Source of the DNA: Ramlibacter paludis
Lineage (GTDB): Bacteria > Pseudomonadota > Gammaproteobacteria > Burkholderiales > Burkholderiaceae_C
Length of the DNA stretch: 64,000 bases
Assembly (NCBI RefSeq): GCF_022012305.1
Contig: NZ_JAKLTM010000003.1
Location: forward strand, 620,001-684,000
Direction of reading: 5' to 3'
The position numbers were made by a program, and so were the translations under genes. Under the pieces are notes generated by a model. That model searched no databases, had not been told where the DNA came from, and was given only the letters and a program-made list of their open reading frames with translations. This document shows positions 20,601 through 49,252 of the stretch, piece by piece. The stretch's first letter is position 1; each line of letters starts with the position of its first letter.

Positions 20601-22526
20601 TCAGCCCGAATGCGGCCCGCCGTCGGCGCCCGCCACGCGCGTCGGCTTGCCCACGCGCGCCAACCACTTCGCCGCGAAATTGATGCCGGTGACCGGTGCG
20701 CCGAAGAAGTTGCCTTGCGCCTGGTCCCAGCCGTTCTTCTTCAGGAAGGCCACCTGCTGCGCGCTGTCGACGCCCGTCGCCACGCAGTTCAGCTTGAGGC
20801 GGCGCGCCAGGTCGCCGATGCCCAGCACCATGGCCGCCACCGTGGGGTCCTTGTCCAGGTCGCGCATGAAGGAAGCATCGACCTTGATCTCGTCGACCTG
20901 CAGCTTGCGCAGCTGCGCCACGGAGGCCGTGGCGCCGAAGCGGTCCAGCGCGATCCGCATCCCCTTCTTGCGCAGCGCCACGATCGCCGCGGTGTCCCGC
21001 TGCGCCACGTTGGCGTCGGCCGGCAGCTGCTGCAGTTCCAGCACCAGCAGGCGCGGGTCCATGCCGCCGCTCAGCGCCGCGTTCACCAGGTAAGCCAGGT
21101 CGCGCAGCTGGATCTGCCCGAGCGAGGCCTTCACCGCCACCGGCACGGCCTGCAGGCTCGCCGTCTTCCAGTTGCGCGAGTGCTTGTGCACCTGCTCGAA
21201 CACCCACTCGGTCAGCGCCACGTCCATCTCGGACGTGCCGGCCAGGTCCATCAGCTCGTCGCCCTCGATGACGCGGCCGGAAGGATGGTTCCAGCGCACC
21301 AGGGCCTGGGCCGCCACCAGCCGGCCGGTGGAAAGCTCCACGCGCGGCTTGAACAGCAGCTCGATCTGGTCGCGGCTCACCGCATGGCGCAGCTCCGCGC
21401 CGAGGTCGAGACGCGCCTGCGCCTGTTCGGTGAAGCGCGGCGAGAAGAACTCGTAGCGGTGCGGGCCGGCCTGCTTGGCGTGGCGCAGCGCCAGGCCGGC
21501 ATTGCGCATCAGCACGTCGGCGTCGCTGCCGTCGGTGGGGAACACGGAGACGCCGACGCTGCAGGTCACGAAGACCTCGGGCGCGCCGGGCCGCTGGAAG
21601 CTGACCGTGGCGTCCTCGAGGATGCGGTTGATGAAGGCGGCGGCGCTGTGGATGCCGTCCATGTAGGGGATCAGCACCGCGAACTCGTCGCCGTCGAAGC
21701 GGTACAGCGTCGGGTTGGCGATATCCGAGCTCAGCTCGCCGCCGGCCTCGGTCTGCACGCAGCTGGCCAGGCGCTTGGCGACGCGTTGCAGCAACTGGTC
21801 GCCCACCACGCGGCCGAGCGCATCGTTCACGCGGCCGAGGCCGTCCACGCCCACGTGCAGGAAGGCGCCGGAGCTGCCTTCGGCGCGCGCCAGCCCCAGC
21901 AGGGCCGCCGCTTCCTTGCGATAGCGCTGCTTGTTCGGCAGGCCGGTCAGCGCATCGTGGTAGCCCAGGTAGTCGCGGTACGCGCTGGCCGCCAGCGTGT
22001 TGCGGATGCGCAGGCCCAGCTCGCTCGGGTCGACCGGCTTCGAGAGGAAGTCCATCGCGCCCAGCGCCAGCGCCTTCAGCTTCACCTGCGGGTCGATGCT
22101 GCTGGTGAGCACGATCACCGGGATGTGGCGCGCGATCGGGTCGTCGCGCATCTCGGCCAGGATGTCGAGGCCGCTCACCTTGGGCATGCTCAGGTCCAGC
22201 AGCAGCACGCCGGGGCGCTCCTTGCGCAGCATGGCCATCGCGCCCTCGGGCTCGTCGGTGTGGACGAAGTGCGTGTAGCCGGCTTCCATCAGGAAGGCCT
22301 GCGTCATCTCGATATTGAGCTGCTCGTCGTCGACCATCATGATCAACGCCTCCGACAGGCCGGCAACCGAGCGGTGCCGCCAGATCATCTCCTGCGGCGA
22401 CAGCGCGCGCAGTTCCTGTTCGGAGAGCTTGTCCTCGCCGGGCGCGAAGACGGTGGGAAAACTCAGGGGCTCGGTGTCGAGGCTGCTTCGGCTGGACTGC
22501 GGGCCGGAGGAGGAATCGGTTGCCAT
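20601..22526 (-). CDS. Response regulator: REC, DGDEF and degenerate EAL domains
   Basis: A 641-residue regulator. The REC domain (about residues 55-175) has the acidic pocket MVDDEQ, the phosphoacceptor aspartate in LLLDLSMP and lysine in LSKPVD. The diguanylate cyclase-like domain follows (DALTGLPNKQRY), but its signature is FDGDEF rather than GGDEF and no RxxD inhibitory site precedes it. In the C-terminal EAL-like domain the catalytic signature reads AQALVRW (glutamate lost), the DDFG metal motif reads DRFG and the late AEGVE reads ATGVD, so phosphodiesterase activity is unlikely. The ATG at 22526 is chosen; a TTG at 22547 would overlap the kinase stop. It is last in the giant-protein operon and presumably the kinase's partner. 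Role: c-di-GMP synthesis or binding, unresolved. Confidence 0.88.
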   Translation of the reverse strand: MATDSSSGPQSSRSSLDTEPLSFPTVFAPGEDKLSEQELRALSPQEMIWRHRSVAGLSEALIMMVDDEQLNIEMTQAFLMEAGYTHFVHTDEPEGAMAMLRKERPGVLLLDLSMPKVSGLDILAEMRDDPIARHIPVIVLTSSIDPQVKLKALALGAMDFLSKPVDPSELGLRIRNTLAASAYRDYLGYHDALTGLPNKQRYRKEAAALLGLARAEGSSGAFLHVGVDGLGRVNDALGRVVGDQLLQRVAKRLASCVQTEAGGELSSDIANPTLYRFDGDEFAVLIPYMDGIHSAAAFINRILEDATVSFQRPGAPEVFVTCSVGVSVFPTDGSDADVLMRNAGLALRHAKQAGPHRYEFFSPRFTEQAQARLDLGAELRHAVSRDQIELLFKPRVELSTGRLVAAQALVRWNHPSGRVIEGDELMDLAGTSEMDVALTEWVFEQVHKHSRNWKTASLQAVPVAVKASLGQIQLRDLAYLVNAALSGGMDPRLLVLELQQLPADANVAQRDTAAIVALRKKGMRIALDRFGATASVAQLRKLQVDEIKVDASFMRDLDKDPTVAAMVLGIGDLARRLKLNCVATGVDSAQQVAFLKKNGWDQAQGNFFGAPVTGINFAAKWLARVGKPTRVAGADGGPHSG

Positions 22527-22543
22527 TGGATACAGATTGTCCG

Positions 22544-25020
<2,477 letters not shown>

Positions 25021-25024
<4 letters not shown>

Positions 25025-28000
25025 GCGAATCCTCGCAGCGGGTCGGGGGCCTGGTCCGCAGCGGGCGGCAAGGCTTCGTCGTCGTCTTCTTCCTCGTCGT
25101 CGCCGGTGCGGGCCAGCACCGGCAGCGGGTCGAGCAGGCGCCAGGCGGGCAGCGCCGACAGGTAGCTGCCGACCAGCACGCCACCGCGGATCAGCCAGAG
25201 CACGTAGACCACCGAGACGCCGAGCGACAGGCCGGCGACGGTGATGCTGGTACTGCGATCCAGGTTGAAATCTTCCTGCAGCTGCTTGCGCAGCCGGTTC
25301 ACTTCCTCGACGAAGGCGCCGGCGCGCAAGGTCTGTTGCAGCTGCTGCACGCTCAGCCGGGTGACGCTGCCGTCGAGACCCTCGAAGCCCATGACCTTGA
25401 ACTCCGCCGGCGCGCCGAAGGCTTCGACGCGCAGGTCGCGCAGTTCCTGCAGGGAGACCGGGATCAGCCGCGCCGATTCCGAGGGCAACTGCAGTTGCTG
25501 CGGCGCGAAGCCCATGACCTGCTGCGGTGCTTGCGCCAGACCTGCGGTGTTGCCGAAGGCGTCGCCGAGTGCCGCTTCCACGGTGCCGCCGGCACGGCCC
25601 GGGGCTGTTGCCGGCGCGGGCGCGGGAGCAGCGGCCGTTGCGGGCGCCGGGGCGGCGACCGGTGCCGGTGCGGGTGCAGGAGTCGGGGCTGGCGCGGGCG
25701 CAGGCGCAGGCGCCGGCGCGGCAACCGTTCCGGCGTCGACCACGATGCGCACCGCGCCTGCGGCAGCGTCGACACCGCCGCCGGCGGTGCCGCCATCGTC
25801 GCGCACCAGCCAGGCCAGTTCGGCCACGCTGCCGGCGCTGCCGCGGGCGGCCATGAACTGCAGGCCCTGCAGCTGCGCCAGCGTGTAGGTGGCGCCCAGC
25901 TGCACCGGCGTCGTGCCATCTGCCAGCAGCACCGTGCCGACCTGGCTGGCGGGCAGCACCGTGATCGTTACGCCCAGCTGCTGGCCGGCTTCGTCGCTGC
26001 CGCCGCCTGCCGAATAGTCCAGGGTCGCGAGCTGCAGGGAAGCCGCCGGCGTGCCTTCGGCGACGACGACGCTGGGCGTCTGCGCGCCGGCCCCGCGCGG
26101 CACCGGGCTGTCGTTCACGGGCGTGATCGTGATGCTGGCGGTCGCCAGGCCGGCGCTGAAGGCCGACGTTCCGCCATGGACGGTGGTGTCGCCGCTGCCG
26201 TCGCCACTTTGGTCCCAGGCGCGGAACACCAGGCCGGTGGCCGTGCCGTTCCAGTCGGCGGCGGGCGTGAAGCGTATGCGGGTCAGGCGGTCGGCGCCCA
26301 GGAGTTCGGCATGGGCGGCGTCCGCCGATGCAAGGCTGGACCAGGTGGCGCCGCCGTCGCGCGTGAATTCCCAGCTGCCGCCGGCGCTCTGCGCGGACAC
26401 CACCGCGATGCCCAGGCGCCCGAGCGGATCGCTGGCCTGGCCGGCGATGAGGTCCGCCACCGACATGCCCTGGGCATCGATGCCGTCCTCGGGCATCGCT
26501 GGCAACACATTGGCGCCAGTCAGCTCCGGCGCCTGGTTGACCACCGAAACGGTGAACTGCTCCGCGAGCGTCGCGCCGCTGCCGTCGGCCACGCTGAAAG
26601 CGAAGGCGCCGCTGCCGCTGCTGACGTCCTTGCCCGCAAGGAACTGCATGCCGCGCAATTGGTCCAGCGTGTAAGTTGCGCCTGCCACCACGGTGGTGGT
26701 GCCGTCGGCCAGCACGATGGCGCCCAGCTTGTCCGGCAGCGCGGTGACGGTGAAGGCCAGCGCCTGCGAGGCTTCGTCGCTGCCGCCGCCCGGGCCGTAC
26801 CCCAGCGCGGCCAGGCCGAGCGGCATGGCGCCGCTGCCTTCGTCCACGGCCAGGTCGGCCGGCGCCGGAGACGTGCGCACCGGTGCATCGTCGACGGCGG
26901 TGACCGTGAGGAAGAGCGTGCTGCCGGCGCCCGTGTCGACGGTGTAGCGCACCGCCGGGACCGCGCCGTTCCAGTCGGCCAGCGGGGTGAAGAGGTAACT
27001 GCCGTTCGCCGCCAGCGTGAAGCTGCCGACACCGGCGATGGTGGCCGTCTCGCCCGCGGCATACGAGATGCTGCCGATCGTGAAGCCCGTGACCTGCAGC
27101 GCAGATTCGACGTCGCTGTCGTTGGCCAGCACGTTGCCGGTGGCGGCGCCGTCCTCTTGCACGGTGGCCGTGTCGGGGGTCGTCACCGTCGCGTCGTCGA
27201 CGGCGTTCAAAGTGATGTCCAGTGAGCTGCTCACCCCGGTGCTGGTGGTGTAGCCGACCTGCGGCACGGCGCCGTTCCAGTTGGCCAGGGGCGCGAAGAC
27301 GTAGTCGCCGTTGGCCGCCAAACCGAAGCTGCCGACCCCGGCGATCGCCACCGTGGTGCCCGCTGCGTAGTTGTTGCCCCCCAGCGTGAAGCTTGTCACT
27401 TGCAGCACACTGTCGATGTCGCTGTCGTTCGCCAGGACGTTGCCGGTGGCCGCGCTGTCTTCGTCGGCGGTGGCCGCATCGGCGGCGACGACGGTCGCAT
27501 CGTCGACGGCGGCGACCGTGAGCGTCAACGTGCTCGAGGCGCCGGTGGTCGTGGTGTAGCCGATGGCGGGCACCGCACCGTTCCAGTTCGCAACCGGGGT
27601 GAAGCTGTATGCGCCGTTGGCGCCGAGGGTGAAGCTGCCGATGCCGGCCAGGGCGACGGTGCTGCCGGCGGCGTAGCTGTTGCCGGCCAAGGTGAAGCTG
27701 GCGACTTGCAGGGCATCGTCGGCGTCGCTGTCGTTGGCGAGGACGTTGCCGGTGGCGATCGAGTCTTCGTTGACGGCTGCGGCGTCGGCCGCGACCCGGG
27801 TCGGGTCGTCGACCGCGGCCACCGTGATGTCCAGGGTGCTGGCAGCGCCGGTGCCGGTCGTGTAGCCGACCTGCGGCAGCGTGCCGTTCCAGTTGGCTGC
27901 CGGCGTGAAGCTGTAGGCGCCGCTGGCTGCGAGCGTGAAGCTGCCGACGCCGGCCAGCGCCACGGTGCTGCCGGCCGCGTAGGTGTTGCCCGCCAGCGTG

Positions 28001-31000
28001 AAGCTCGCGACCTGCAGGGCGTCGTCGACGTCGCGGTCGTTCGCCAGCACGTTGCCGATGGCCGCCGTGTCTTCGCTGGCCGTGGCGGCATCGGACGCGA
28101 CCACCGTCGCGTCGTCCACGGCGTTCAGCGCGATCGCCAGCGTGCTTGCGGCGCCGGTGTTCGTGGTGTAGCCCACGACCGGCAGCGTGCCGTTCCAGTT
28201 CGCCACCGGCGTGAAGGTGTAGCCGCCATTCGCCGCCAGCGTGAAGCTGCCGACGCCGGCCAGGGCCACCGTGCTACCGGCCGCGTAGCTGTTGCCCGCC
28301 AGCGTGAAGCTCGCGACCTGCAATGCGTCGTCGACGTCGCTGTCGTTGGCCAGGACGTTTCCGGTGGCAATGTTGTCTTCATTCACCGTCACGGCGTCGG
28401 CCGCCACCACGGTCGCGTCGTCGACCGCATTCAGCGCGATGTCCAGCGTGCTGGATGCTCCGGTGTTCGTCGTGTACGCCACCTGGGGCAGCGCACCGTT
28501 CCAGTTGGCGACCGGCGTGAAGCCGTAAGCCCCGCTGGCCGCCATCGTGAAGCTGCCGACGCCTGCCACGACCACCGAGCTACCCGCCGCATAGGTATTG
28601 CCGCCCAGCGTGAAGCTCGCGACCTGCAAGGCGTCGTCGACGTCGTTGTCGTTCGCCAGTACGTTGCCGGTGGCGATGCTGTCTTCGGCGACCGTGATGG
28701 CGTCGGCCGCCGCCACGGTCGGATCGTCCACGGCGGTCAGGGTGATGGCGAGCGTGCCGGTGGCGCCCGTGCCCGTCGTGTAAGTCACCAGCGGCGCGCT
28801 GCCGTTCCAGTTCGCGACCGGCGTGAACGTGAAGCTGCCGTCGGCGGCGATGGCCAGCGTGCCCCGGCCGGCGAGGACCGCGGTGCTGCCGGCCGCATAG
28901 CTGGCCGGGTCTCCCGCGACCTGGAAGCTCGCCACCGCGAGGACGTCGTCGAAGTCACTGTCGTTGGCCAGCACGTTGCCGATGGCGGTCGCGTCTTCCG
29001 GGACGGTCACGCCATCGGCCGCGACGACGGTCGCGTCGTCCACGGCGGCGACCGTGATCGCCAGCGTGCTCACAGCGCCGGTGTTCGTCGTGTAGCTGAC
29101 GACCGGCACGGCGCCGTTCCAGTTCGCCACCGGCGTGAAGGCGTAGTCGCCGTTGCCGCCAAGCGTGAAGCTGCCGACGCCGGCAAGCGCGACCGTGCTG
29201 CCCGCCGCGTAGCCGGTGCCGGCCAGCGTGAAGCTCGCGACCTGCAGGGCGTCGTCGACGTCGCCGTCGTTCGCCAGCACGTTGCCGCTGGCCGCGCCGT
29301 CTTCGTTGACCACGATCGCATCGGCGGCGACCGAGGTCGCGTCGTCCACGGCGTTCACGGTGATTGCCAGCGTACTCGCGGCCCCCGTGTTGGTGGTGTA
29401 GCCAACGATAGTGGCCGCGCCATTCCAGTCGGCTACGGGCGTGAAGGTGTAGGCACCATCCGCACCCAGTCTGAAGCTGCCGATGCCTGCCAAGGTCACC
29501 GTGCTGCCGGCAGCGTAAGTGGTCGCGCCCAGGGTGAAAGCGGCAACCTGCAAGGTGTCGTCGACGTCGCTGTCGTTGGCCAGCACATTGCCGGCGGCGA
29601 CGTTGTCTTCGGCGACAGCCACCGCATCCGGATTCACGACGGTGGGGTCGTCGACGGCATTCACCGTGATGTCCAGCGTGCTCGCGGCGCCGGTGTTGGT
29701 GTTGTAGCTCACCCGGGGCACCACACCGTTCCAGTGGGCCAGCGGCGTGAAGGTGTAGTCCCCGTTGGCGGCCAGCGTGAAGCTGCCGACGCTCGCGATG
29801 GTCACCGTGGCGCCCGCCGCGTAGGTCGTGCCACCTACCTCGAAGCTGGCCACCTGCAGTGCCGTCTCGACGTCGCTGTCGTTGGCCAGCACGTTGCCGG
29901 TCGCGGCCGTGTCTTCGGCGACGGCCACCGTCTCGGCGTTCATCACGGTCGGGTCATCGACGGCGGTGACCGCGAGATCCAGCGTGCTCGAAGCGCCCGT
30001 GCTGGTCGTGTAGCGCACCTGCGGCGCGGTGCCGTTCCAGTTGGCCAGCGGCGTGAAGATGTAGGCGCCGCCGGCGTCCAGCGTGAAGCTGCCGACGTTC
30101 GCGATCGCCACCGTGGCCCCGGCCGCGTAGCTGCTGCCGGCGATGCTGAAGCCCGCCACCTGCAGCGAGGAATCGACGTCGCTGTCGTTGGCCAGCACGT
30201 TGCCGCTGGCGACCGTGTCTTCTGCGACCGTGGCCGCATCGGCCGCAACGACGGTCGCGTCGTCGACCGGATTCACGGTGATGTCCAGAGTGCCGTCCGC
30301 GCCGGTCTGGGTCGTGTAGCCGACCTGCGGCACGGCGCCGTTCCAGTTCGCGATCGGCGTGAAGGCATAACTGCCGTCGGCCGCCAGCGTGAAGCTCCCC
30401 ATGCCGGCGATGGCGACGGTGGCGCCGGGCGCGTAGCTGGTGCCCGCGATCGTGAAGGCCGCCACCTGCAGCACGTCGTCGGCGTCGCTGTCGTTGGCCA
30501 GCACGTTGCCGGCAGCGACGTTGTCCTCGGCGACGGCCACGGCGTCCGGATTCACGACGGAGGCGTCGTCGACGGCAGCCACCGTGATGTCCAGCGTGCT
30601 GGCGGCGCCGGTGTTGGTCGTGTAGCTCACCTGCGCAACGGTGCCGCTCCAGTCGGCGACGGGCGTGAAGGTGTAGTCGCCGTTCGCAGCGAGCGTGAAA
30701 CTGCCCTGGCCGGCAAGCGTGACGCTGGCGCCGGCCGCGTAGCTCGTGCCGCCGATGACGAAGCTGCTCACTTGCAGGGCCGTCTCGACATCGCTGTCGT
30801 TGGCGAGGACGTTGCCGCTGGCCACCGTTTCTTCGGCCACGCTGGCGGCGTCCGGCGCCATCACGGTCGGATCGTCGACGGCACTGACGCCGATGTCCAG
30901 CGTGCTGCTCGCGCCGGTATTCGTCGTGTAGGTGACCTGCGGCAGCGCGCCGTTCCAGTTGGCGAGCGGCATGAAGCTGAAGACGCCGCCGGCAGAGAGC

Positions 31001-37000: not shown

Positions 37001-40000
37001 CCGACGGGCCGATCGTTGACGGCAGCGACGGTGATCGTCGTGCTGGCGGTGGCCGTGCTGAAGGCCTTGGCCGCACCGGCGACCGTCGCGTCGGCCACGC
37101 CGCCGGCGGCGCCCGCGGTGCCGTCCCAGGCGGCCAGCGTCAGCGTGGCGGTGCCGCTCCAGTCGCTGGCCGGCACGAAGCGCACGCGGGTCAGCGTGTC
37201 GGCCAGCAGCAGGCGCGCGCTCGTCGCCGTGGCGGCGCCGAAGGCCGTCCACGTCGTACCGCCATCGCGCGTGTACTGCCAGCTGCCGTGGCTGTCGTCG
37301 ACCGCGGTCACGGCGATGCCGCGCGTACCGGTCGGGTCGGCTACCTGGCCGGCGATCAGGTCCGAGACCAGCGTGCCGTTGCCGACGGTGTCTTCCGCGA
37401 TCGCCGCCATGGCATTGGCGCCGTTCAGCACCGGTGCCCGGTTGGTGACCGTGAGCGTGAGGGACAGGTTGGAGAGGTCCACACCGCCGTTGGCGACGCC
37501 GCCGTCGTCCTGCACGCTGAACGCCACCACCACCGCGCCCGGCGTGGCGTTGGCGGCCGAGCGGAACAGCATCGCCTGGAACTGCGCCTGCGTGTAGGCC
37601 GTGCCCACGCTCACCGGCGTCACGCCGTCGGCCAGCAGCAACTGCACGTTGCCCGGGATGGAAGTGAAGTGGAAGGTCAGCGCCTGCGCCGCTTCGTCGC
37701 TGGCGGTCGCGGGGCCGGGTGCATAGCTGCCGGAAGCCAGGATGGAGGCCGGCGCCGCGCCCTCTTCCACGGTCCCGCCGGTGGCACCCACCGCGACCGG
37801 TGCGTCGTTGCGGGGGGTGACGGTGAAGACCGAGGTGGCGGTCGCCGCGCTGAAGGCGAAGGCGCCGCCGTTGTAGGAAGCGTCGGCCAGGGTGCCGTTG
37901 CTGCCCGTGGTCTGGTCCCAGGCGCGGAAGGTGAGCCCCGCGGTGCCCATGCTGCTGTTCCAGTCGGTGCCGGGCAGGAAGCGCAGCTTGGTCACGCCGT
38001 CGGCCGCCAGCTGCAGCGCACCGGTGTTGCTCACGCCGGTGATGCTGATCCAGCTGTTGCCGTCCACCGTGTACTGCCAGGTGCCGTTGCCGCTGGTGCC
38101 GACGATGGCGATGCCGCGGTCGCTGATGACGGCGTCGGTGACCTGCCCGGTGATGAGGGCGTCCACCAGCGTGCCGGCACGCTGCCCGGCGGACGACCAT
38201 GGCGGCGGATTGCCGCCCGGGATGTTGCCGCTCCAGTCGAAGTCCTCGTAGACGACGACCGGCGAATTGGCGCCGTTCAGCACCGGCGCGCGGTTGACGA
38301 TCACCTTGACGGTGAACGTGCCGGTGTCCACGCCGGTGTTCGCCGTGCCGCCGCTGTCCCGGGCGGCGAAGGAGAAGCTGCCGGTCCCGAGCTGGCCGAT
38401 GCCGGACGACAGGAACTGCATGCCCTGGACCTGCGCCAGCGTGTACTGCGTGTTGAGCGTGACCTGGGTCGTGCCGTTGGCCAGCCAGACCGTGCCCAGC
38501 GCCGACGGCAAGGCGGTGACGGTGTAGCTCTGGAGGGTCTGCGCGGCTTCGTCCGGGCCGCCACCGGGGCCGACGGTGAAGCCGGCGAGGCCCAGCGACG
38601 TGAGCGGCGAGCCATCGAGCAGGATCAGCGGGGCGGGCGCCACGCCGGCAACGTCGGTGCGCGCCGGTGCGTCGTTGACGGCGGTGACGATGACGGTCGC
38701 GGTGGCCGTCGTCGAACTGAAGGCCGTCGCGCCGCCGTTGACCGTCGTGTTGGCGGTGCCGCCACCGGTGCCCGCGCTGCGGTCCCAGGCACGGAAGGTG
38801 AAGCCCGGCGCCGTACCGTTCCAGTTGGCCGTGGGCACGAAGCGCACGCGCCACTGGCCGCCGGTTTCCAGCAGGATGGAGTTGGTCGCGCTCGCCGCGG
38901 CGAGCGAATTCCAGTTGCTGCCGCCGTCACTGTTGTACTGCCAGGTGCCGGCCGCGCCGCCGGCGGCCGCAGTGACGGCGATGCCGGTGGTATTGCTCAG
39001 GTCGGTGATCTTGCCGGCCACCAGGTCCGCGACCCGCATGCCGTTGCCCGGCACGTCTTCCAGGATCGAGGGCATGGTGTTGGCGCCGCTCAGCGTCGGG
39101 GCCTGGTTGAAGACCGAGATGGTCATCGAATCCAGCAGCGTGTCGACGCCCCCGTTGGCGGTGCCGGCGTTGTCCTTCACCATCCAGCTGAAGGTGCCGC
39201 TTGCGCTCTGCACGCCGTTCCCGGGCTTGAACTTCATGCCCTGGATCTGGCCGATCGTGTAAGTGGTGCCTGCGCTCACCACGGTGGTGCCGTCGGCGAG
39301 ATAGATCGTGCCGACCGCGGACGGCACCGCCGTGACCGTGTAGCTCACGCTCTGGTCGTTGTACTCGTCGAGCGCGTAGCCGGGGATGTAGTCGAGGCTG
39401 CCCAGGCCCAGCGAGGTGAAGGTGACCGTGGCTTCGCGCACCGACACGGCCGCCGGGGGCGGCAGCAGCGTGCCGAGGGCAACGCTGTAGCGCACCGGGA
39501 TGTCGTTCACCGGCGTCAGCGTCAGCGCCGCCGTCGCCGTCGTGGCGCTGAAGGCGGAGACGCCGCCGGGAGCACTGGTGCTCGCGAGGCCGCCTGCCAC
39601 GCCGGACGTGCCGTCCCACGCACGGAAGGTGAAGCCGGGGATGGCGCCGTTCACGTTGGTGCCGGCGTCACCGACGAAGCGCACCCGCGCGTCGGGGCCT
39701 AGCAGGCGCGCGTTGTTGGTGGTGCCGCTCAACGCCAGCCAGGTGCCGCCGCCGTCGACGCTGTATTCCCAGGTGCCGCCGATGTTGCCGTTCGGCATGC
39801 CGACCACCGCCATGCCGTAGGGGCCGCTGCCGTCGGTCACCGCGCCGGCCAGGATGGCAGACACCAGCGTGCCGTTGCCCGGCACGTCTTCGAGCTGGGT
39901 GAAGGGATTGGGCGGCGCCGAAAGCACGGGCGCCGCGTTGGTGACGGTCACGGCCAGCGACTGCGCCAGGCTGTCCGCGCCGCCATTGGCGGTGCCGCCG

Positions 40001-42903
40001 CTGTCGTTCACGCGGAAGCTGAAGCTGCCGGTTCCGATGGCGCCGGCGCGCAAGCGCATGCCTTGCAGCTGCGCCAGCGTGTAGCCGGTGCCGGAAGTCA
40101 CGGCGGTCCCGTCGGACAGCTCGATGGTGCCGGCGGCGCCCGGCAGTCCGGTGACGGTATAGGTGAAGGTCTGCGCGGCTTCGTCCGTGCCGCCGCCCGG
40201 CCCGTAGTTCAGGCCGGCGAGGCCCAGGGACACGATGGAACCTTCGGTGGTGCCCAGGTTGGCCACGGTGCCGGCGCTGCGCACCGGCGCATCGTTCACG
40301 CCGGTGACCGTGACCGTGGACGCCGCCGTCGCCGTGCTGAAGGCGCTGTTGCCGCCCGGGCTGGGCACGGCGACGACGGCGCCCGCGGCGCCGGTCGTGC
40401 GGTCCCAGGCGTGGAAAGTGATGCCCGCGCTGCCGGCGTAATTGGCGTTCGGCACGAAGCGCACGCGGGTGGTCGTGTCGGCGGCGAGCAGCAATGCATT
40501 GCCGCTCGCGGGGCTCGCCAGCGCCGCCCAGGTGCTGCCGTCCAGCGCGTACTGCCAGCTGCCGTTGGCCGTATCCACCGCCGTCACGGCGATGCCCTTG
40601 AGCGCGCCGGCGTCGAGGTCGGTGATGGCACCGGCCACCAGGTCGGCCACCAGCGTGCCGCCACCTGCGGCGGCATCTTCCAGCTGCGCCGGCAGGTTGG
40701 CCACGGCGCCGAGGACCGGGGCGCGGTTGAAGCCGCCGAACTGCGCCACCACGCCGTCGCCCCCGCTGCCGATCGTGGTCTTGTAGCCGTCGGTGGTCGC
40801 GAGGCCGCCGGTGCTGGTCGAGCCGACGAGGTACAGCCGGTTGCCGGCGCCCCAGGCGACGCCGCCGCTGTCCAGCCCCGTGCCGTAATAGCTGCCGTAC
40901 ACCATGTCGCTGCTGCCGCCGCCCACCGGGTTCAGCACGAGGACGAAGCCGGTCTTGCCGGCGGTGTTGGTGCGCTGGACCGCGTCGGCGGTGGTGGGGA
41001 AGTCGGACGTGTCGGTGCTGCCGACGATCGCCACGTAGCCCCCATTGACCGCGATGCCGGTCGGTGTGTCGGTCAAGCCGCCGGAAAGCGAACCGCTGGC
41101 GTTGCGCGAGCCGCCGATGAAGCTGGAATACACCATCGAGGCGCTGCCGGCCAGCGTGGTGTCGTAGATGCGCAGGAAGCCGGTCTGCAGCGTGTAAGGC
41201 GTGGTGGCAAAGGCGCCCGTCGTGGTGGGAAAGCCGTTGCTGGGATCCTTGGTCTGGCCGATCACGTAGGCCTTGCCGGCGTTGTCGGCGGCCAGGCCGG
41301 TGACGTTGTCGAACTTGGTCCAGCCGACGTAGCTCGAATAGAGCACCGTTCCCGCGGCCCCGTACTTCACCAGGAAGCCGTCGCCCGCGCCGCCCGCGCT
41401 GGACTGCGCGCCGCCGACGATCGTGTTGTCGGTGGAGAGCGTGTTGCCGGCGAGGTAGACGTTGCCGGCGCCGTCCACCGCCATGCCCATGCCCGCCTCG
41501 TCGCCGCTGCCGCCCCAGGTCCACTTGGCAAGCGACGTGCCGCCGGCGCTGTACTTGTTGACGAAGGCGTTGTCCGAGGTCCCGGTCACCGTGCCGGCGA
41601 GGTAGATGGTGCCGCTGCCGTCCACGGCGACCGCGGTGGCGGTGTCGTTGCCGCCGGCGCCGCCGAAGTAGGTGCTGAACACCAGCGCGTTGCCCGCCGC
41701 GTTCAGCTTGAACAGGAAGGCATCCTGGTTGCCGCTCCTGGCCGCCTGGTCGCCCGCGGCCGCGCCGACGAAGTCGGCCGACTTGGTCCAGCCGCCCACC
41801 ACCACCTGGCCGCTCGCGTCGACGGCGATCGCGTTGCCGGCTTCGTTGTTGCTGCCGCCCACGCGCGTCGCGTAGACCAGCGTCGTGAGGTCGGCGTTGA
41901 ACTTGGCGACGTAGGCTTCGTTGCCGTCCGGGCCGGCGTCCAGCCGCGTGCCGAAGCTGCCGCTGTTGGAGGTCGTCTGGCCGGTGACGTAGACCGCGCC
42001 ATCGCTGCCGACCGCGACGCCCAGCGCCGTCTCTGCGCCGGCTTCGCCGAAATAGGTGGCGTGCGACAGCACCGGGTCGACCACCAGCGCGCGGCGGGTG
42101 TCGTAGGCGCCGACGACGATGCGCACCGTGCCGTCGGCCTGCAGGGTGTAGTGGCTCTCCACGCTCTCGCGGCCGGCTGCGCCCTGCTGGTAGCTCACGG
42201 GCGCCTGGAAGCGCAGCTCGCGCCCGGTGCCCGCCACCTGCAGCAGCAGGTCGCCGTTTTCGGCGATGGTGGCGCCGTCCGTGCCGTGGAAGCGCAGCTG
42301 CAGCTGCGCAGCGTCGGCGCCCGGCGCCAGCAGGAAGTCGTATTCGAGCTGGCTCTGGTTGCCGTAGTAACGGATGTCGATGCCGTCCCAGACGCCCTGG
42401 TAGCGCACGCTGCCGTAGTTGGCGATGTCGGTCACCCACTTCGACGCGTCGGCGCCCACCAGGGAGTTGCTGCGCGTGGCCAGCAGGTCTTCGCCGACCG
42501 GCGTTCCCGCGTTCGCGCCGACCAGTTCCAGCCGCACCGGGTCCTGCGCGCCATCGAGCAGCAGTTCGGCCTGGCCGCCACCCCCCAGGCGCAGCGAATA
42601 GCCGAGGCCCGATGCGGCGAAGTCGACGCCCTCGCCCAGCTGGCCCGCATCGGCCTCGAACTGCAGCGGCGTCAGTGCATAGGCGGCGCGAACCTCCGCG
42701 CTCGCGGGCGCGGCGGCGGTGTCGGCGCTGTATTCGAAATCGGTGCCGAGCTGCCGGGTCTGCTGCAGCGCGCCGTCGTCCACCGCCAGCAGCAGGCTGG
42801 CCGCGTCGGCGGAATACAGCAGCCGCGGCTCCAGCCACTCTGCCTGCGGCGCGACCCGCGCCTTGCGGGCGGGCCGGGAGCGTCGCAGCAGGGCGCCGAG
42901 CAT
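25021..42903 (-). CDS. Giant 5960-residue LEPR-XLL / SBBP / cadherin-like repeat surface protein
   Basis: The N-terminus is basic ([17 protein letters not shown]) and leads into [11 protein letters not shown] at residues 23-33, the LEPR-XLL motif of large repetitive surface proteins; no classical signal peptide is seen. Residues about 75-275 resemble the domain that precedes SBBP beta-propeller repeats ([34 protein letters not shown]). SBBP-type blades follow to 725. Residues 726-2079 hold five alternating pairs of about 135-residue modules, 2080-3599 sixteen repeats of 95 residues, and 3600-5336 seventeen of about 102. Residues 5337-5722 return to the first module type. A Pro/Ala-rich linker (about 5728-5769), a C-terminal domain, one hydrophobic helix (about 5885-5905) and an acidic tail [10 protein letters not shown] complete it. 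There is no RTX nonapeptide or type I secretion end. Likely a surface fibre or adhesin, probably calcium-stabilised (inference). It starts seven bases after the HlyD-like gene. Confidence 0.93.
26896..32106 (-). repeat. Seventeen tandem ~102-codon repeats (VCBS/Big_9-like)
   Basis: This coding array encodes seventeen consecutive modules (residues 3600-5336) on the pattern VDDxTV, [17 protein letters not shown], LQVxSFxxxGxxYAAG, GSFTLxxxGxYxFTPxANWNG and YTTNTGAxSTL. Modules 10-15 are nearly identical in protein, whereas the outermost modules diverge. Neighbouring units differ at DNA level mainly at synonymous positions, for example around 27951-28020 versus 28251-28320. The acidic NDSDVDD segments are of the kind that bind calcium in cadherin-like folds. 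Confidence 0.9.
32107..36666 (-). repeat. Sixteen tandem 95-codon repeats (cadherin-like, tandem-95 class)
   Basis: Sixteen modules (residues 2080-3599, averaging exactly 95 residues) follow the pattern VNDAPVAxxD, xxTEDxPLxIxxxxLLANDxDxxGDxL, GGTVxLxGGxIxFTPxANFNG and [20 protein letters not shown]. They belong to the cadherin-like/Ig-like class seen in bacterial adhesins. They are more diverse than the downstream 102-codon array, so the two arrays amplified separately. Confidence 0.9.
36667..40728 (-). repeat. Five alternating module pairs of ~135 codons each in the giant gene
   Basis: Residues 726-2079 contain five copies of a module with GIAVT, W-Y--DGGxxW, RFVPxxxWNG and FRAWD, alternating with five copies of a second module with GPGGGxDEAAQ, LADGTxV, [11 protein letters not shown] and [11 protein letters not shown]. 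The same two types reappear near the C-terminus (residues 5337-5722). The repeat blocks are therefore bracketed by the same modules on both sides. Confidence 0.85.
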
Positions 42904-42910
42904 GCGGGAT

Positions 42911-43816
42911 TCAGATCCGCGGCTTGACGCGCAGGTCGGGCGACAGCTGCAGCTGCAGCTCGCTGCCGCGGCTGGTGCGCGACACCGGATTGGCGGCCGC
43001 GGGCGCCTCGGCGCCGGACAGGTCCGCCTTGCAGCGCAGTCCGGCCGGCAGCGTGTTGCCAGGGTTCGGCAGCGACAACCTGGCGCGGAAGGTGTTGCTC
43101 GCGCCCTCGATCACGCGGTCGACCAGGGCCACGGTCGCAAAGCGCGGCTGCGCGCCGGGAAACTCCGGCGTGATGCGCATCGCCACGCCCTTGCGCACCA
43201 CCGGGTACAGGCTGGCCGGCAGCACCACCTCGACCCGCAGCGGGTCGACCACGGCGACGCGGAACATCGGCTTGTCCTCGACCCGCTCGCCTACGGAGAG
43301 GTAGCGGTCGGCGATCACGCCGTTGGCCGGGCTGCGGATGGTGCGCAGGCCCAGTTGCGCGCGCGCCAGTTCGTGTTCGCGGCCGTAGATGTCGCGCTGC
43401 TCGCGCGCCTGCATCAGCCGGTTCTCGGCCACCATCGCTTCGGCGCGGGCCTGTTCCAGCGCCTGCGCGCTGATGAAGTCCTGGCGCGCCAGGTCGACCG
43501 CGCGCGTGAGCTTCTGGCGCGCGAGTTCCGCGTTGGCTTCGGCGGCCTTGAGTTCGCCCAGGCCCTGCGCGCGTCCCTCGGCCACGTTGACCGACATGCG
43601 CTCGACGTCGGCGCGCAGCGTGGCCAGCGGCTGCCCGGCGCGCACGGTGTCGCCGCGTTCGACGTGCACGGTCTCGATCACGCCCACCACCGGGCTGCCG
43701 ATGTCCGACACGCTGAAAGGCTCGATCAGGCAGCCCAGGGGCTGCGGCGGCGCGGCATGGAGCGCGGGCGCCAGCAGGCAGGCCGCGGACAGCAGCGTTC
43801 TACGGATCCAGTTCAT
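42911..43816 (-). CDS. Secreted/periplasmic HlyD-type adaptor protein
   Basis: A 301-residue membrane-fusion-protein-like adaptor. A cleavable signal peptide is visible (MNWIRRTLLSAACLLAPALH, then AAPPQP). The lipoyl-like half-motifs are VVGVIETVHVERGDTVRAGQ and TIRSPANGVIADRYLSVGE, flanking a long alpha-hairpin rich in Ala, Glu and Arg (about residues 70-150), then a beta-barrel region (PLRVEVVLPASLYPVV). Unlike HlyD of type I systems it has no N-terminal membrane anchor, so it is periplasmic. The ATG overlaps the SecA-like stop (ATGA). With the two other adaptor-type proteins of this operon it could form a periplasmic conduit, but no inner-membrane pump is encoded here. Confidence 0.85.
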   Translation of the reverse strand: MNWIRRTLLSAACLLAPALHAAPPQPLGCLIEPFSVSDIGSPVVGVIETVHVERGDTVRAGQPLATLRADVERMSVNVAEGRAQGLGELKAAEANAELARQKLTRAVDLARQDFISAQALEQARAEAMVAENRLMQAREQRDIYGREHELARAQLGLRTIRSPANGVIADRYLSVGERVEDKPMFRVAVVDPLRVEVVLPASLYPVVRKGVAMRITPEFPGAQPRFATVALVDRVIEGASNTFRARLSLPNPGNTLPAGLRCKADLSGAEAPAAANPVSRTSRGSELQLQLSPDLRVKPRI

Positions 43817-45735: not shown

Positions 45736-47873
45736 GCCTGCCCCGTCGGGTTGAACTGCTTCAGGAACAGCTGGCGCAATTGCGCCAGCCACTGCAGCGC
45801 GAGCGGCTGCGGCGGCAGCACCAGCTTGACCCAGGCCCGCCCGCCGATGGTGCTGGCCTGCAGCGCCGGCACTTCGGCGTCGAGCAGGAACACGGGGACG
45901 CGCGTGCGGATGCCGGCCGGATCGGCCGGATCGAGCGGGATGCTGCCGCCGAAGCGGTCGCCCAGCGCGGGCGCCGGCAGCTCCAGCGTCGCGCCCGGGG
46001 CGGCTTCGGCCAGCCGGCCGGCGTAGGTGGTGGCGGGCGCGTCGGCGAGCCGCACTTCGAGGGCGCGCACGCGGCCGCGCGTGCGCAGGTAGTCGTCTTC
46101 CAGCAGCGCGATGCGCACGTGCGCCGGGCCGCCGGTCAGCACGTGGCCCAGCATGGCGCCGCGCTTGACGAAGCTGCCGGGCAGGTCTTGCGGGCGCGAC
46201 CACACCACTTCGCCCGGCAGGTGCGCCCGCACCTCGAGCTGCCCGAGTTGCTCCTCGACGCGTGCGAGTTCGGCGGCGTTGCGATTCAGGTCCTCCGCCA
46301 GTTCGGCGGCGCGCACCGGTTGCGACAGCAAGGCGGCGTATTGCTGCGCGAGCAGGCCGCCGCGCTCCGCCGTGACGCGCTCCTGCGTGGCCACCAGCAC
46401 CGGATCCTGCAGTTGCACCAGCTGCTCGCCGGCGATCGCCCGCTCGCCCTGCCCCAGCGCCAGCTTCTCGACGAAGCCGGCTGCGCCGGCGCGCAGCTGC
46501 GCCTGTTCGGGCGGCCAGACGACGCCCCGGGCCACCACCTGCTGCGGCGCCGGCACCAGCACCAGCAGCACGAGCGCCACGCAGGCGACGGCCGCCGCGG
46601 CGCGCAGCGAACGGCGGCGCGCGGAAACATCGCCGCCACCGGCCGTGGCCCAGCGCCACAGCTGCCGGCCGAGCCAGGCAGCCAGCGCGATGGCAGCCAC
46701 CCATCCCAGCAGCCAGGACTGCTGGCCGATCCAGAACACCAGCGCCAGCAGCAGCACGACGCGGTAGACCGCCGCGGCCGGCGCATAGGCGGCCAGCCAC
46801 TTGGCTTCACCGCGCGCCAGCAAAGGCGCCGGGCCGGCCGCCGGAACACGGATCCAGGTGCGCCAGCGGCGCGCCCACCAGGCCTGGCTGCGCTGCGCCA
46901 GGTTGGGCAGCTGCAAGGCGTCGGTCAAGGCGTAGTAGCCGTCGAAGCGCATCAGCGGATTGGCGTTGAACAGCACGGTGGACAGCGAACAGGTCAGGGC
47001 CACCACCAGCGCGATGTCGCGCACCAGGCCCGGGCTCACCGACAGCCACAGCCACAGGGCCAGGCAGGCCAGCGCCACTTCCACCAGGATGCCCGCGGCG
47101 CTGACGACCAGGCGGTGGCGCGGGGCGGGAAAAGCGTTGGCCGCGCTTGCATCCACGTACGGCGCCGGCGTCAGGAACATCAGCGACAGGCCCAGCTCGT
47201 GGACCTGGCCGCCGTAGCGGCGCACCGCCAGGCCGTGACCCAGTTCGTGCAGCAGCTTGACCAGCGGGTAGCAGAGCCAGGCGATGAAGTAGCTCGAAGG
47301 GGTGGCGAACAGGCGCCGGGCGTCGGCTTCGAGTTCGCCGAAATGGGCGCCCGCGGCCAGCAGGGCGAGCAGCACGGCAACCGTCCACGCCAGCAGCACG
47401 CCGGGCTGGAACAGCGCCTGCCCGAGCGGCGCCAGCCGGTCCAGCAGTCGCGCCGGATTGGCCAGCGGCATCCGCAGCATCAGCGGATTCATCATGCCGC
47501 GGCGGCGCTGCTTGTCGTCCTCGGCGCGGCGCGCGAACAGCAGCGACAGGTGCGGCGCGGCGTCGAAGCGCAACATCCCGCCGCGGAACAACTGGGCCAG
47601 CAGCCGCAGCACTTCGTCCTGGGTGGGCGCGTCGGCGCGCTGCTCGCGCAGCTGGCGCTGCCAGAGCTGCTCCACCGCCACGCTGCCGTCGAAGCGCGCC
47701 ACCAGGCCGTAGGCGGCGGGATTCAGGCGCAGCTGGCGGCCCGAAGCCGGCTCCACCAGCACGTGCCAGACCTGTTCGCGCACCTGTTGCCGCACCACGC
47801 GCAGGCCGGCCACCAGGCTGGGACGCAGGCCGGCGACCCGGTGCCAGGAGGCGCTGACCAGCGGCTCGTTCAC
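45732..47873 (-). CDS. PqqD-like domain - M50 (site-2-type) zinc protease - HlyD-like fusion
   Basis: A 713-residue membrane protein. Residues about 10-110 resemble the PqqD/RiPP-recognition fold (REQVWHVLVEPASGRQLRLN, YGLVARFDGSVAVEQLW). The M50 protease core has the zinc motif HELGH (H209, E210, H213) and the partner motif NANPLMRFDGYY with D311, among about six hydrophobic segments. From about 445 a lipoyl-like and alpha-hairpin region follows (VVARGVVWPPEQAQLRAG, VEKLALGQGERAIAGEQLVQ), like HlyD adaptors. I chose the GTG at 47873 because it forms a GTGA overlap with the upstream stop and has GGAAAG upstream; the GTG at 47894 is possible. Family members are annotated as peptide zinc metalloproteases. 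Inferred role: recognition, cleavage or handing over of the giant protein. Confidence 0.85.
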   Translation of the reverse strand: MNEPLVSASWHRVAGLRPSLVAGLRVVRQQVREQVWHVLVEPASGRQLRLNPAAYGLVARFDGSVAVEQLWQRQLREQRADAPTQDEVLRLLAQLFRGGMLRFDAAPHLSLLFARRAEDDKQRRRGMMNPLMLRMPLANPARLLDRLAPLGQALFQPGVLLAWTVAVLLALLAAGAHFGELEADARRLFATPSSYFIAWLCYPLVKLLHELGHGLAVRRYGGQVHELGLSLMFLTPAPYVDASAANAFPAPRHRLVVSAAGILVEVALACLALWLWLSVSPGLVRDIALVVALTCSLSTVLFNANPLMRFDGYYALTDALQLPNLAQRSQAWWARRWRTWIRVPAAGPAPLLARGEAKWLAAYAPAAAVYRVVLLLALVFWIGQQSWLLGWVAAIALAAWLGRQLWRWATAGGGDVSARRRSLRAAAAVACVALVLLVLVPAPQQVVARGVVWPPEQAQLRAGAAGFVEKLALGQGERAIAGEQLVQLQDPVLVATQERVTAERGGLLAQQYAALLSQPVRAAELAEDLNRNAAELARVEEQLGQLEVRAHLPGEVVWSRPQDLPGSFVKRGAMLGHVLTGGPAHVRIALLEDDYLRTRGRVRALEVRLADAPATTYAGRLAEAAPGATLELPAPALGDRFGGSIPLDPADPAGIRTRVPVFLLDAEVPALQASTIGGRAWVKLVLPPQPLALQWLAQLRQLFLKQFNPTGQA

Positions 47874-49252
47874 CACGGCGTGACTTTCCACCACGCCAGC
47901 CGCAGCCAGTCGATGCCGCGATGGGCCAGCAGCCAGCCGAGCGGGCGCCAGCCGGCATCGACCTTGGCGACGCCGCTCAGGCCCGGCCGCAGCTGCGGCA
48001 GCGCCTCCTGCAGGGCGGCTTCGACCTCGAAGAAGTTGCGGCCTTCGGCGGTGGCGGCCACCGGCACGATGCGCCGGGTGGTGAAGGCCAGCGTGCGATC
48101 GGGCTGCGCCGCCAGCGCCAGTTCGCCGCGCTGGCCGGGACGGATCGCGCCGACATCGGCTTCGTCGACTTCCAGGATCAGGCGAAAGCTGTCGTTGGGC
48201 GCCAGCACCATCAGCACTTCGCCGCGCTGCACCGGCGCGCCCAGGGTCTGGCTCAGGTCGCCCTTAATCACGATGCCGTCGAAAGGCGCTTCGATGCGCG
48301 CGCGCTGCAGCTGCGTTTCCACCAGCGACAGCAGCGCCTGCGCCTCGGCGGCCTTGGCCTGGAAGGCCACCATCTGCGCCCGGTCGGCGCGCGACTGGGC
48401 GGCGCGGTAGGCGTTCTCGTGCTGACGCAGTTCGCTCTCGCGGCGGCGCCGCTCCAGCTCCAGGTCCTGCGAATTCAGTTGGGCCAGCACCTGGCCGGCC
48501 TGCACGCGGTCGCCCGGCCGGACGTTGGCCTGCTGCAGGAAACCGTCGGTGGCGGCCACCACGGCGCGCTGCACCGAGCCTTCGAGCCGCGCCGGGGCGC
48601 TGACGCGCCAGGGCACGGGAATGGCGAGCGCCGCCGCGACGAGCGCGATGGCGCCGGCGATGGCGAGCCGGCGCCGCGAGGGCCGGGCCAGGCGTTCGCG
48701 CAGGTCGTGGCGCACGCGCCGGTGCCAGGGCAGCGCCAGTTGCTGCTTGAGGTCGAACACCGGGCCGGCCAGGCGGGACAGGTCGGCCAGCGCGGTCATT
48801 TCGGCCGCGGTGAAGGCGGGGGCGGCACGTTCCAGCGTGACGGCGCCCAGGACGCGGGTGCCGTCCACCAAGGGGATGCTGCAGGCCGCGCCGGCGGCGG
48901 CCAGCTGGCGGTGCGCGAGGGTGATGTGTTCGGGGCCGGCCGGCCAGGCGACCACCTGCTGCTGGTCGAGCGCCTCCTGCATGGCGTCCAGCAGGGCCGT
49001 GGCGCCCGGCTGCCCCGGCTGGAGCTCAGCGGGGTGCGAGCTGCCCGCGAGGCGCAGGACGCCGTCTTCCAGCAACCCGACCGAGGCGCGCGCACAGCCC
49101 AGCAGCTCGCACAGCTCGCTGCCGAAGGCGGCCGCCGCCTCGGCCAGTCCCGCACGCCCGAGGGCAGCCGCAACCGGCCGCATGAGCAGGCTGGAAGCGG
49201 GCGCAGCCGGCGCTTGCGCAACCGGCAGGGTCGGTGGGCTGGACAGGTCCAT
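47870..49252 (-). CDS. GAF-domain HlyD-type membrane adaptor
   Basis: A 460-residue protein. Residues about 30-165 form a GAF-like cytoplasmic sensor domain (LCELLGCARASVGLLEDG, ACSIPLVDGTRVLGAVTLER). A single membrane helix follows (RRLAIAGAIALVAAALAIPV), then an adaptor portion with VVAATDGFLQQANVRPGD, an alpha-hairpin, and RIEAPFDGIVIKGDLSQTLG. A ligand-sensing domain on a secretion adaptor is unusual and could gate export. The ATG at 49252 is preferred over a TTG at 49270. It is the first gene of the operon; the 101 bases upstream show no promoter I can defend, so read-through from the propionate operon is possible. Confidence 0.85.
   Translation of the reverse strand: MDLSSPPTLPVAQAPAAPASSLLMRPVAAALGRAGLAEAAAAFGSELCELLGCARASVGLLEDGVLRLAGSSHPAELQPGQPGATALLDAMQEALDQQQVVAWPAGPEHITLAHRQLAAAGAACSIPLVDGTRVLGAVTLERAAPAFTAAEMTALADLSRLAGPVFDLKQQLALPWHRRVRHDLRERLARPSRRRLAIAGAIALVAAALAIPVPWRVSAPARLEGSVQRAVVAATDGFLQQANVRPGDRVQAGQVLAQLNSQDLELERRRRESELRQHENAYRAAQSRADRAQMVAFQAKAAEAQALLSLVETQLQRARIEAPFDGIVIKGDLSQTLGAPVQRGEVLMVLAPNDSFRLILEVDEADVGAIRPGQRGELALAAQPDRTLAFTTRRIVPVAATAEGRNFFEVEAALQEALPQLRPGLSGVAKVDAGWRPLGWLLAHRGIDWLRLAWWKVTPW

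Follow-up and report, generated by a model that had tools for sequence, protein, structure and literature searches.

The 64,000-nucleotide stretch of Ramlibacter paludis DNA considered here (contig NZ_JAKLTM010000003.1, positions 620,001 to 684,000; hereafter the window) carries seven consecutive genes, all on the minus strand and with tight or overlapping junctions, the fifth of which encodes a giant LEPR-XLL protein (Table 1). An earlier note on this DNA had placed the genes and named their domains, and both are confirmed by the coordinates and by Pfam and NCBIfam, which were applied to all seven proteins. The first four genes, encoding a GAF-HlyD adaptor, an RRE-M50-HlyD fusion, a short SecA-like ATPase, and a small HlyD protein, will be called the core. 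Seven bases separate the last of these from the gene of the giant, and the kinase and regulator genes that follow have overlapping ends. The M50 fusion begins with GTG, an alternative upstream GTG at 47894 being possible, and its PqqD (20.9 bits) and M50 (26.6 bits) domains score slightly below the Pfam cut-offs. The note had read the locus as a dedicated export and processing system for the giant; the observation stands, and the interpretation is supported in part.

Table 1. Features of the seven-gene locus, with positions in the window
Feature	Position	Strand	Basis
GAF-HlyD, 460 aa: GAF domain, one membrane helix, HlyD/barrel-sandwich adaptor	47870..49252	-	Pfam GAF and HlyD_3; helix read from sequence
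RRE (PqqD-like)-M50 intramembrane protease-HlyD fusion, 713 aa	45732..47873	-	Pfam, NCBIfam, AlphaFold2 model
Short SecA-like ATPase, 640 aa: NBD1, PPXD, NBD2, one scaffold helix	43813..45735	-	Pfam, NCBIfam, alignment, AlphaFold2 model
HlyD/RND-type adaptor, 301 aa, signal-peptide-like N terminus	42911..43816	-	Pfam; TIGR01730, 115.9 bits (cut-off 94.9)
Giant LEPR-XLL protein, 5960 aa: DUF7948 and SBBP repeats, cadherin/Big repeats	25021..42903	-	Pfam, NCBIfam, sequence
C-terminal membrane hairpin of the giant and beginning of its acidic tail (putative hairpin)	25069..25275	-	Sequence, hydropathy, conservation
Hybrid histidine kinase, PAS-HisKA-HATPase-REC-Hpt	22544..25024	-	Pfam; start overlaps the stop of the giant
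REC-GGDEF-EAL regulator	20601..22547	-	Pfam

The seven genes are a real unit that is inherited together. Of 16 other Ramlibacter species that have a giant with the C-terminal hairpin and a short SecA on one contig, 10 were fetched for a check of gene order, and in all 10 the order is identical to that in the window (for G423, the fetched stretch does not reach the N-terminal end of the giant). In three species pairs, the ratio of nonsynonymous to synonymous substitution (dN/dS) is 0.23–0.35 for the core genes and 0.32–0.62 for the kinase and regulator. Because the order recurs in every congener fetched and the core genes show such ratios, chance is excluded. Of 59 genomes of the genus, 26 have a hairpin giant, and all 26 also have a short SecA, as do 3 of the 33 genomes lacking the hairpin giant (6 of 33 if fragments at contig edges are counted); short and canonical SecA were sorted by eye in this count. 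The two lie together on one contig in 17 of the 26, the window included.

The R. paludis genome (5.0 Mb) contains four cores and four LEPR-XLL giants in total. All four cores are on the contig of the window (C15 in our numbering), the three further ones at approximately 138–145, 570–577, and 696–703 kb; in the core at 570–577 kb, the HlyD gene is on the opposite strand. The other giants are at C15:94988 (a 13,956-aa frame), C15:606854 (a 10,065-aa frame), and C12:13622. The last is cut off by the start of contig C12, as the fourth core is by the end of C15; we infer that C12 joins C15. The 10,065-aa sister giant adjoins its own SecA cassette (L016–L018, C15:560001–620000), has RTX-like C-terminal repeats, and lacks a hairpin. 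The closest giants with names in the database are Ramlibacter proteins.

A phylum sample of 398 genomes was searched with an alignment of the M50 protein (E ≤ 1e-20; two M50 candidates scored per genome other than that of R. paludis). The M50 family occurs in 91 genomes and LEPR-XLL in 41. The two coincide strongly: the family is present in 40 of the 41 LEPR genomes versus 51 of the 357 non-LEPR genomes (Fisher p 2e-28). It splits into a strong class (at least 460 bits, 37 genomes) and a weak class, and the strong class is found in 32 of 41 LEPR genomes versus 5 of 357 others. The claim that the locus is dedicated to its giant is thus borne out both by this co-occurrence and by the gene order within the genus. 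The best 80 of at least 549 loci confirmed in a second scan were kept; they come from alpha-, beta-, and gammaproteobacteria, Desulfobacterota, Nitrospirota, Rokubacteria, and Omnitrophota. Together with 41 others, several of them from a single genome, they make up a set of 121 strong-M50 loci, chosen by M50 and not by SecA. A short SecA is present in 115 of the 121, on the M50 strand in 115/115, with a median gap of 58 bp and a gap of at most 400 bp in 109. At the thresholds of this analysis, GAF-HlyD is present in 113 and a small HlyD in 94 of the 121. In 63 of these loci, the fetched stretch includes SapC or DUF3467 genes, often between giant and cassette (for example, SapC at L057 12895–13674 and DUF3467 at L081 12968–13246); they are perhaps cargo-specific helpers.

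The earlier note had asked whether such giants regularly occur without these neighbors, and the answer depends on the set. In 15 hand-chosen assemblies (11 with LEPR giants), 15 of 17 giants, counted by eye, lie within approximately 16 kb of a family M50, some of these SecA-free. Over all 56 giants of the sample, a set with many broken assemblies, only 25 share a contig with a scored M50 and lie within 30 kb of it, and a general nearness of all LEPR giants to the cassette was rejected on this count.

The machine itself is already known on paper. Kamneva, Poudel, and Ward (PLoS One 2015; PMC4452313) described, in the accessible part of their article, secondary SecA_DEAD proteins that have wholly or partly lost the wing-scaffold domain and are encoded, across phyla, with GAF-HlyD, M50-HlyD, HlyD, and sometimes OEP proteins. 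They proposed that SecA is the ATPase, and M50 perhaps the pore, of a type-I-like exporter. Compared by described architecture, that module and ours have the same four proteins and the same wing-scaffold loss and lack an ABC transporter; in the window, too, a SecA_DEAD protein without wing-scaffold is adjacent to GAF-HlyD, M50-HlyD, and HlyD genes. The earlier note's statement that no machine of this composition had been characterized therefore holds for experiments only, since the module has been published, as has the suggestion that SecA is its ATPase (PMC4452313, as far as available). The term that these authors use turns up in one further paper. No cargo is named there, the words LEPR, giant, and cadherin each occurring zero times in the main text as available. 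A literature search that covered papers outside subscription found no publication, in the parts accessible, that links LEPR giants to the SecA module; LEPR-XLL is mentioned once each in the accessible parts of PMC10868602 and PMC9611531. What we add to the published module, as far as its description is available, are the LEPR cargo, the leader rule with its dialects, the likeness of the M50 half to the daptide leader protease, a second, SecA-free class, and the seven-gene form with regulators and a C-terminal, presumably anchoring, hairpin. LEPR-XLL giants are likely the cargo of the SecA/M50/HlyD module.

In the window, the leader of the giant (11 residues, letters not shown) occupies aa 23–33; it scores 15.4 bits against the LEPR-XLL family NF012209, below the 17-bit cut-off, and the motif is plain to the eye. 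The three other giants of the genome exceed this cut-off. No Sec signal peptide is visible in the sequence of the giant. Leaders could be read in 42 of the 56 giants, and the neighboring cassette is known for 26. Two dialects emerge. The S-type (34 of 42) is mostly [E/D]-x-[LMI]-E-x-R-h-[LM]-[LM]-S-[AG]-[DE], with E or D at the first place in 34/34 and a few exceptions past the R (for example, G143 and G271); the D-type (8 of 42) is A-LEPR-h-[LM]-[LFY]-D-[AG]-A. Dialect tracks cassette class: 20 of 20 S-type leaders stand beside a strong cassette, and 6 of 6 D-type leaders beside a weak, SecA-free one, a match expected once in 230,230 random pairings, with relatedness uncorrected for. Two genomes (G006 and G304) hold both dialects, each giant beside its own cassette class. 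Because one genome (G332) has a strong M50 and an S-type leader but no SecA, the leader seems to follow the M50 protein rather than SecA.

In the M50 fusion, the HExxH motif (His-209, Glu-210, and His-213) and Asp-311 are invariant in 46 of 46 sequences, of which PqqD matches 35 and M50 42 at E ≤ 0.01, the window protein among them in both cases. Its AlphaFold2 model has a predicted local distance difference test (pLDDT) score of 86.7, and the HlyD half matches MexA/MacA. The best NCBIfam match of the window fusion is the daptide leader protease family NF041824, which spans RRE and M50 (157.4 bits, cut-off 300); five relatives score 139–166 bits against the same cut-off, and NF041824 is the best family in both cassette classes. 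In daptides, an RRE-fused protease removes leaders marked ELExMEAP (PMC10036551, available part), cutting after ELExxxxx (PMC12338566, available part). The likeness to DapP/MpaP lies in the fusion of an RRE to an M50 intramembrane protease; here, in contrast, there is an extra HlyD half, the substrate is a giant rather than a short peptide, and the score is below cut-off. Since ELExMEAP, as given in the part of the daptide literature available, has few letters in common with the S-type motif [E/D]-x-[LMI]-E-x-R, the comparison is a lead, not a test. The proposal in the earlier note that the M50 fusion recognizes and cuts the giant fits these findings, the RRE-protease half being nearest in sequence to a leader protease.

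The short SecA has the fold of a SecA. Its AlphaFold2 model (pLDDT 87.1) retrieves SecA or SecA2 as the first 36 of the 50 matches listed in a Foldseek search of the PDB, and it shares the motor motifs of the canonical SecA and SecA2 proteins. It spans the N-terminal part, the first nucleotide-binding domain (NBD1), the preprotein cross-linking domain (PPXD), NBD2, and one scaffold helix. The helical wing, the two-helix finger, and the C-terminal linker of canonical SecA are missing from the window protein and from the other 37 short SecAs aligned with it; alignment occupancy falls to 0.06 and then 0.00 past approximately position 680 of the canonical sequence. In a tree without SecA2, the short SecAs and 16 canonical SecAs fall on different branches. 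Of the 115 SecA loci, 108 have the Walker A pattern.

The note had stated that no ABC transporter, TolC, or TpsB is present, which is true of the surroundings of the window and untrue of the family. In 143 kb of C15 around the window, we found no ABC pattern (a simple pattern rather than a profile), no match to two OEP profiles, and no TpsB. In the family, the fetched stretch contains an ABC pattern in 3 of the 121 strong-M50 loci and TpsB in 10, and a wider profile finds OEP in 26 of the 115 SecA loci. A Pfam scan of 24 of these 26, the set without L082 and L141, confirmed all 24 as PF02321. A first OEP profile, built mostly from lipoprotein-type OEPs, had given none in the SecA loci compared with it; weak matches then proved to be OEP proteins, and with the wider profile, the idea that SecA and TolC are strict alternatives was abandoned. 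There is also a SecA-free sister class, in which M50-HlyD and further HlyD proteins stand beside LEPR giants and TolC/OEP lies in the stretch of 11 of 13 weak-M50 loci. TpsB is absent from the best 80 of the at least 549 scanned loci, and with 10 of 121 in the wider set it was rejected as a general outer-membrane partner; the window likewise differs from two-partner secretion in having no TpsB around it. Where a TpsB-like barrel stands directly beside the cassette (L064 14384–16504, L066–L073, L076), several have an adjacent FHA-like protein, and the two may be a second secretion pair that accompanies the cassette. Read most simply, the conduit is type-I-like, its outer-membrane component is often encoded at another site, and SecA belongs to one class only.

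This resemblance raises the possibility that a housekeeping ABC exporter and TolC export the giant in trans, while the cassette merely processes, regulates, or tethers it. As in HlyB/HlyD/TolC systems, there are HlyD adaptors, whose usual partners are ABC and TolC, a TolC-family channel near some loci, and giant adhesin-like cargo; moreover, 17 OEP domain matches occur in the genome, all on contigs other than C15, and the sister giant carries RTX-like repeats. We nevertheless consider such export in trans improbable: very few cassettes have an ABC pattern in their stretch, and the giant of the window ends in a membrane hairpin rather than RTX repeats. Other differences from type I secretion are the SecA-like ATPase and the N-terminal position of the conserved leader.

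The last approximately 75 residues of the giant comprise two hydrophobic stretches flanking RGG (in YVLWLIRGG; hydropathy peak 2.19), then 13 residues (letters not shown) and an acidic tail, and the hairpin has invariant residues in our alignment A7. The C-terminal 161 aa match 24 database giants, 12 of which have LE[PQ]R near the N terminus. We infer from the sequence that the hairpin is a stop-and-anchor element. It occurs in only 4 of the 398 sampled genomes, namely in the window, beside a TolC-type cassette (G102, L109), beside a strong cassette without SecA (G186, L078), and, in G287, elsewhere. The kinase is kept in all 10 congeners fetched, and kinase and regulator accompany the hairpin-giant locus in the genus. 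All 11 orthologues of the regulator have DGDEF in place of GGDEF, and none retains an intact EAL tripeptide; the protein is therefore perhaps a sensor of cyclic di-GMP (c-di-GMP) rather than an enzyme.

The LapA/LapD/LapG system offers a parallel. There, a giant adhesin is retained by an N-terminal plug in TolC and is controlled by the protease LapG and a c-di-GMP protein with a degenerate EAL domain. The giant adhesin, the degenerate-EAL protein, and possibly proteolytic release are shared; here, by contrast, an M50 protein stands in the place of LapG, and the putative anchor is a C-terminal membrane hairpin. It is also conceivable that the giant is exported by Sec, or remains membrane-anchored in the periplasm, and that the cassette serves quality control or signaling, with kinase and c-di-GMP governing a regulated intramembrane proteolysis of the hairpin. 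The M50 proteins are a family of site-2 proteases, one adaptor has a GAF sensor domain, and hairpin and both regulators occur together in all 10 congeners fetched. Yet the hairpin is far rarer than the strong M50 class (4 versus 37 of the sampled genomes), and no Sec signal peptide is visible. Hairpin cleavage was rejected as the general role of M50 on the first of these counts; as an account of the locus we retain it as a rival, a distinctly improbable one.

We propose instead, with about even confidence, that the locus encodes a non-classical exporter dedicated to a giant surface protein. In this proposal, the giant would carry an N-terminal LEPR-XLL leader in place of a Sec signal peptide. 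The PqqD-like RRE of the M50 fusion would dock the leader, and the protease would cut next to it, by homology with daptides. GAF-HlyD, M50-HlyD, and HlyD, whose homology to adaptors is evident, may assemble into a periplasmic conduit leading to a TolC-family channel, whose gene would be close to the cassette in some species but at another site in R. paludis. The short SecA may use its PPXD/NBD groove to clamp the unfolded chain and spend ATP to feed it into an inner-membrane entry probably formed by the membrane parts of M50 and GAF-HlyD rather than by SecYEG. In Ramlibacter, the conserved hairpin would halt export and leave the giant anchored by its C terminus, and the kinase and degenerate c-di-GMP protein may control synthesis or release of the giant.

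Several lines of evidence favor an exporter. Within the genus, these are the gene order, the invariable company of hairpin giant and short SecA, and the four cores matched by four giants. Beyond the genus, they are the co-occurrence of LEPR-XLL with M50, the short SecA on the M50 strand in 115 of 121 loci and its Walker A pattern, the invariant M50 active site, NF041824 as best family, the match of dialect to class, and OEP near 26 of 115 SecA loci. In addition, the same ATPase role was proposed from other data (PMC4452313, available part). The most specific form of the proposal is more tentative. It would define a class of leader-gated exporters in which RRE-M50-HlyD reads and clips the LEPR leader according to dialect and opens an HlyD/TolC conduit, a finger-less SecA threads giants of several thousand to approximately fifteen thousand residues without SecYEG or ABC, and, in Ramlibacter, the hairpin ends export and anchors the product. 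Taken as a whole, this form is doubtful, if well worth considering.

A number of observations weigh against an exporter of this kind. First, the genomic association has exceptions. The strong class is missing from 9 of the 41 LEPR genomes, and both classes are missing from one (G212); conversely, five genomes have the strong class but no LEPR match. Of the giants, 31 of 56 have no scored M50 within 30 kb, 28 of them having none on the contig and 3 having one farther away, although cassettes were later found beside three of the 31 (G006:1442689, G014:C17, and G014:C25). A 12,249-aa LEPR frame at G019:C1:2506229, in a genome of three contigs, has no cassette in reach, but may be served in trans by a cassette at 1.86 Mb. 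Second, some cassettes have no SecA: it is missing from 6 of the 121 strong-M50 loci, of which two (L077 and L179) end at a contig edge and the other four have no such explanation, and from all 13 weak-M50 loci. Third, the SecA protein itself is atypical. That of the window has the longest branch of the SecA tree (1.84), and in its subfamily motif V is changed (GSHI for GTDI in the window), as is motif VI (GRQGQ for GRQGD in 11 of 11). Five loci (L086, L089, L145, L177, and L186) keep, at the same position, SecA relatives without Walker A or DExD; the three of these scanned by Pfam all match SecA_DEAD, one slightly below cut-off, and such relatives are possibly pseudo-motors. Fourth, M50 proteins are not known to act as channels. 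Finally, the accessible literature describes neither a way out of the cell for LEPR giants nor any experiment that shows their export.

In SecA-SecY, two-helix finger and clamp are thought to act jointly on the chain (PMC6599042, available part); a short SecA without the finger could therefore act as a clamp, but could not push the chain as SecA ordinarily does. For this reason, and in view of the absent wing and linker, the motif-less relatives, and the SecA-free class, the earlier designation of the SecA-like protein as the only motor is doubtful. The exporter could be the same, with the short SecA acting not as its engine but as a chaperone or gating factor that keeps the giant unfolded and passes it to the membrane parts, the energy coming from the proton motive force, folding outside the cell, or housekeeping SecA/SecYEG. 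The loss of finger and wing, the persistence in cassettes of relatives without ATPase motifs, and the sister class, with its TolC and LEPR giants, all accord with such a role. Against it, Walker A is kept in 108 of 115 loci, and dN/dS of the window SecA gene is 0.23–0.27 in three pairs, both of which speak for the importance of ATP use in cassettes that have SecA. The same dN/dS values, together with the motifs shared by the subfamily, led us to reject the view of the window SecA as a decaying gene despite its long branch. On balance, we regard a chaperone or gating role as rather unlikely, if a serious contender. Beyond the regulator lies a GltD-like oxidoreductase (18672–20495), found likewise in 8 of the 10 congeners fetched; it is probably a stable neighbor rather than a part of the system.

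LEPR-XLL giants are present in roughly one in ten of the sampled genomes, and the SecA-containing module, published in 2015, has so far lacked a cargo. Joining the two makes both questions, what the module carries and how the giants leave the cell, directly testable. The features of the M50 fusion suggest that leader recognition of the type used for ribosomally synthesized and post-translationally modified peptides, by an RRE with an M50 protease, serves some of the largest bacterial proteins as well. If the proposed export is true, a SecA-type clamp would act here outside the usual Sec channel.

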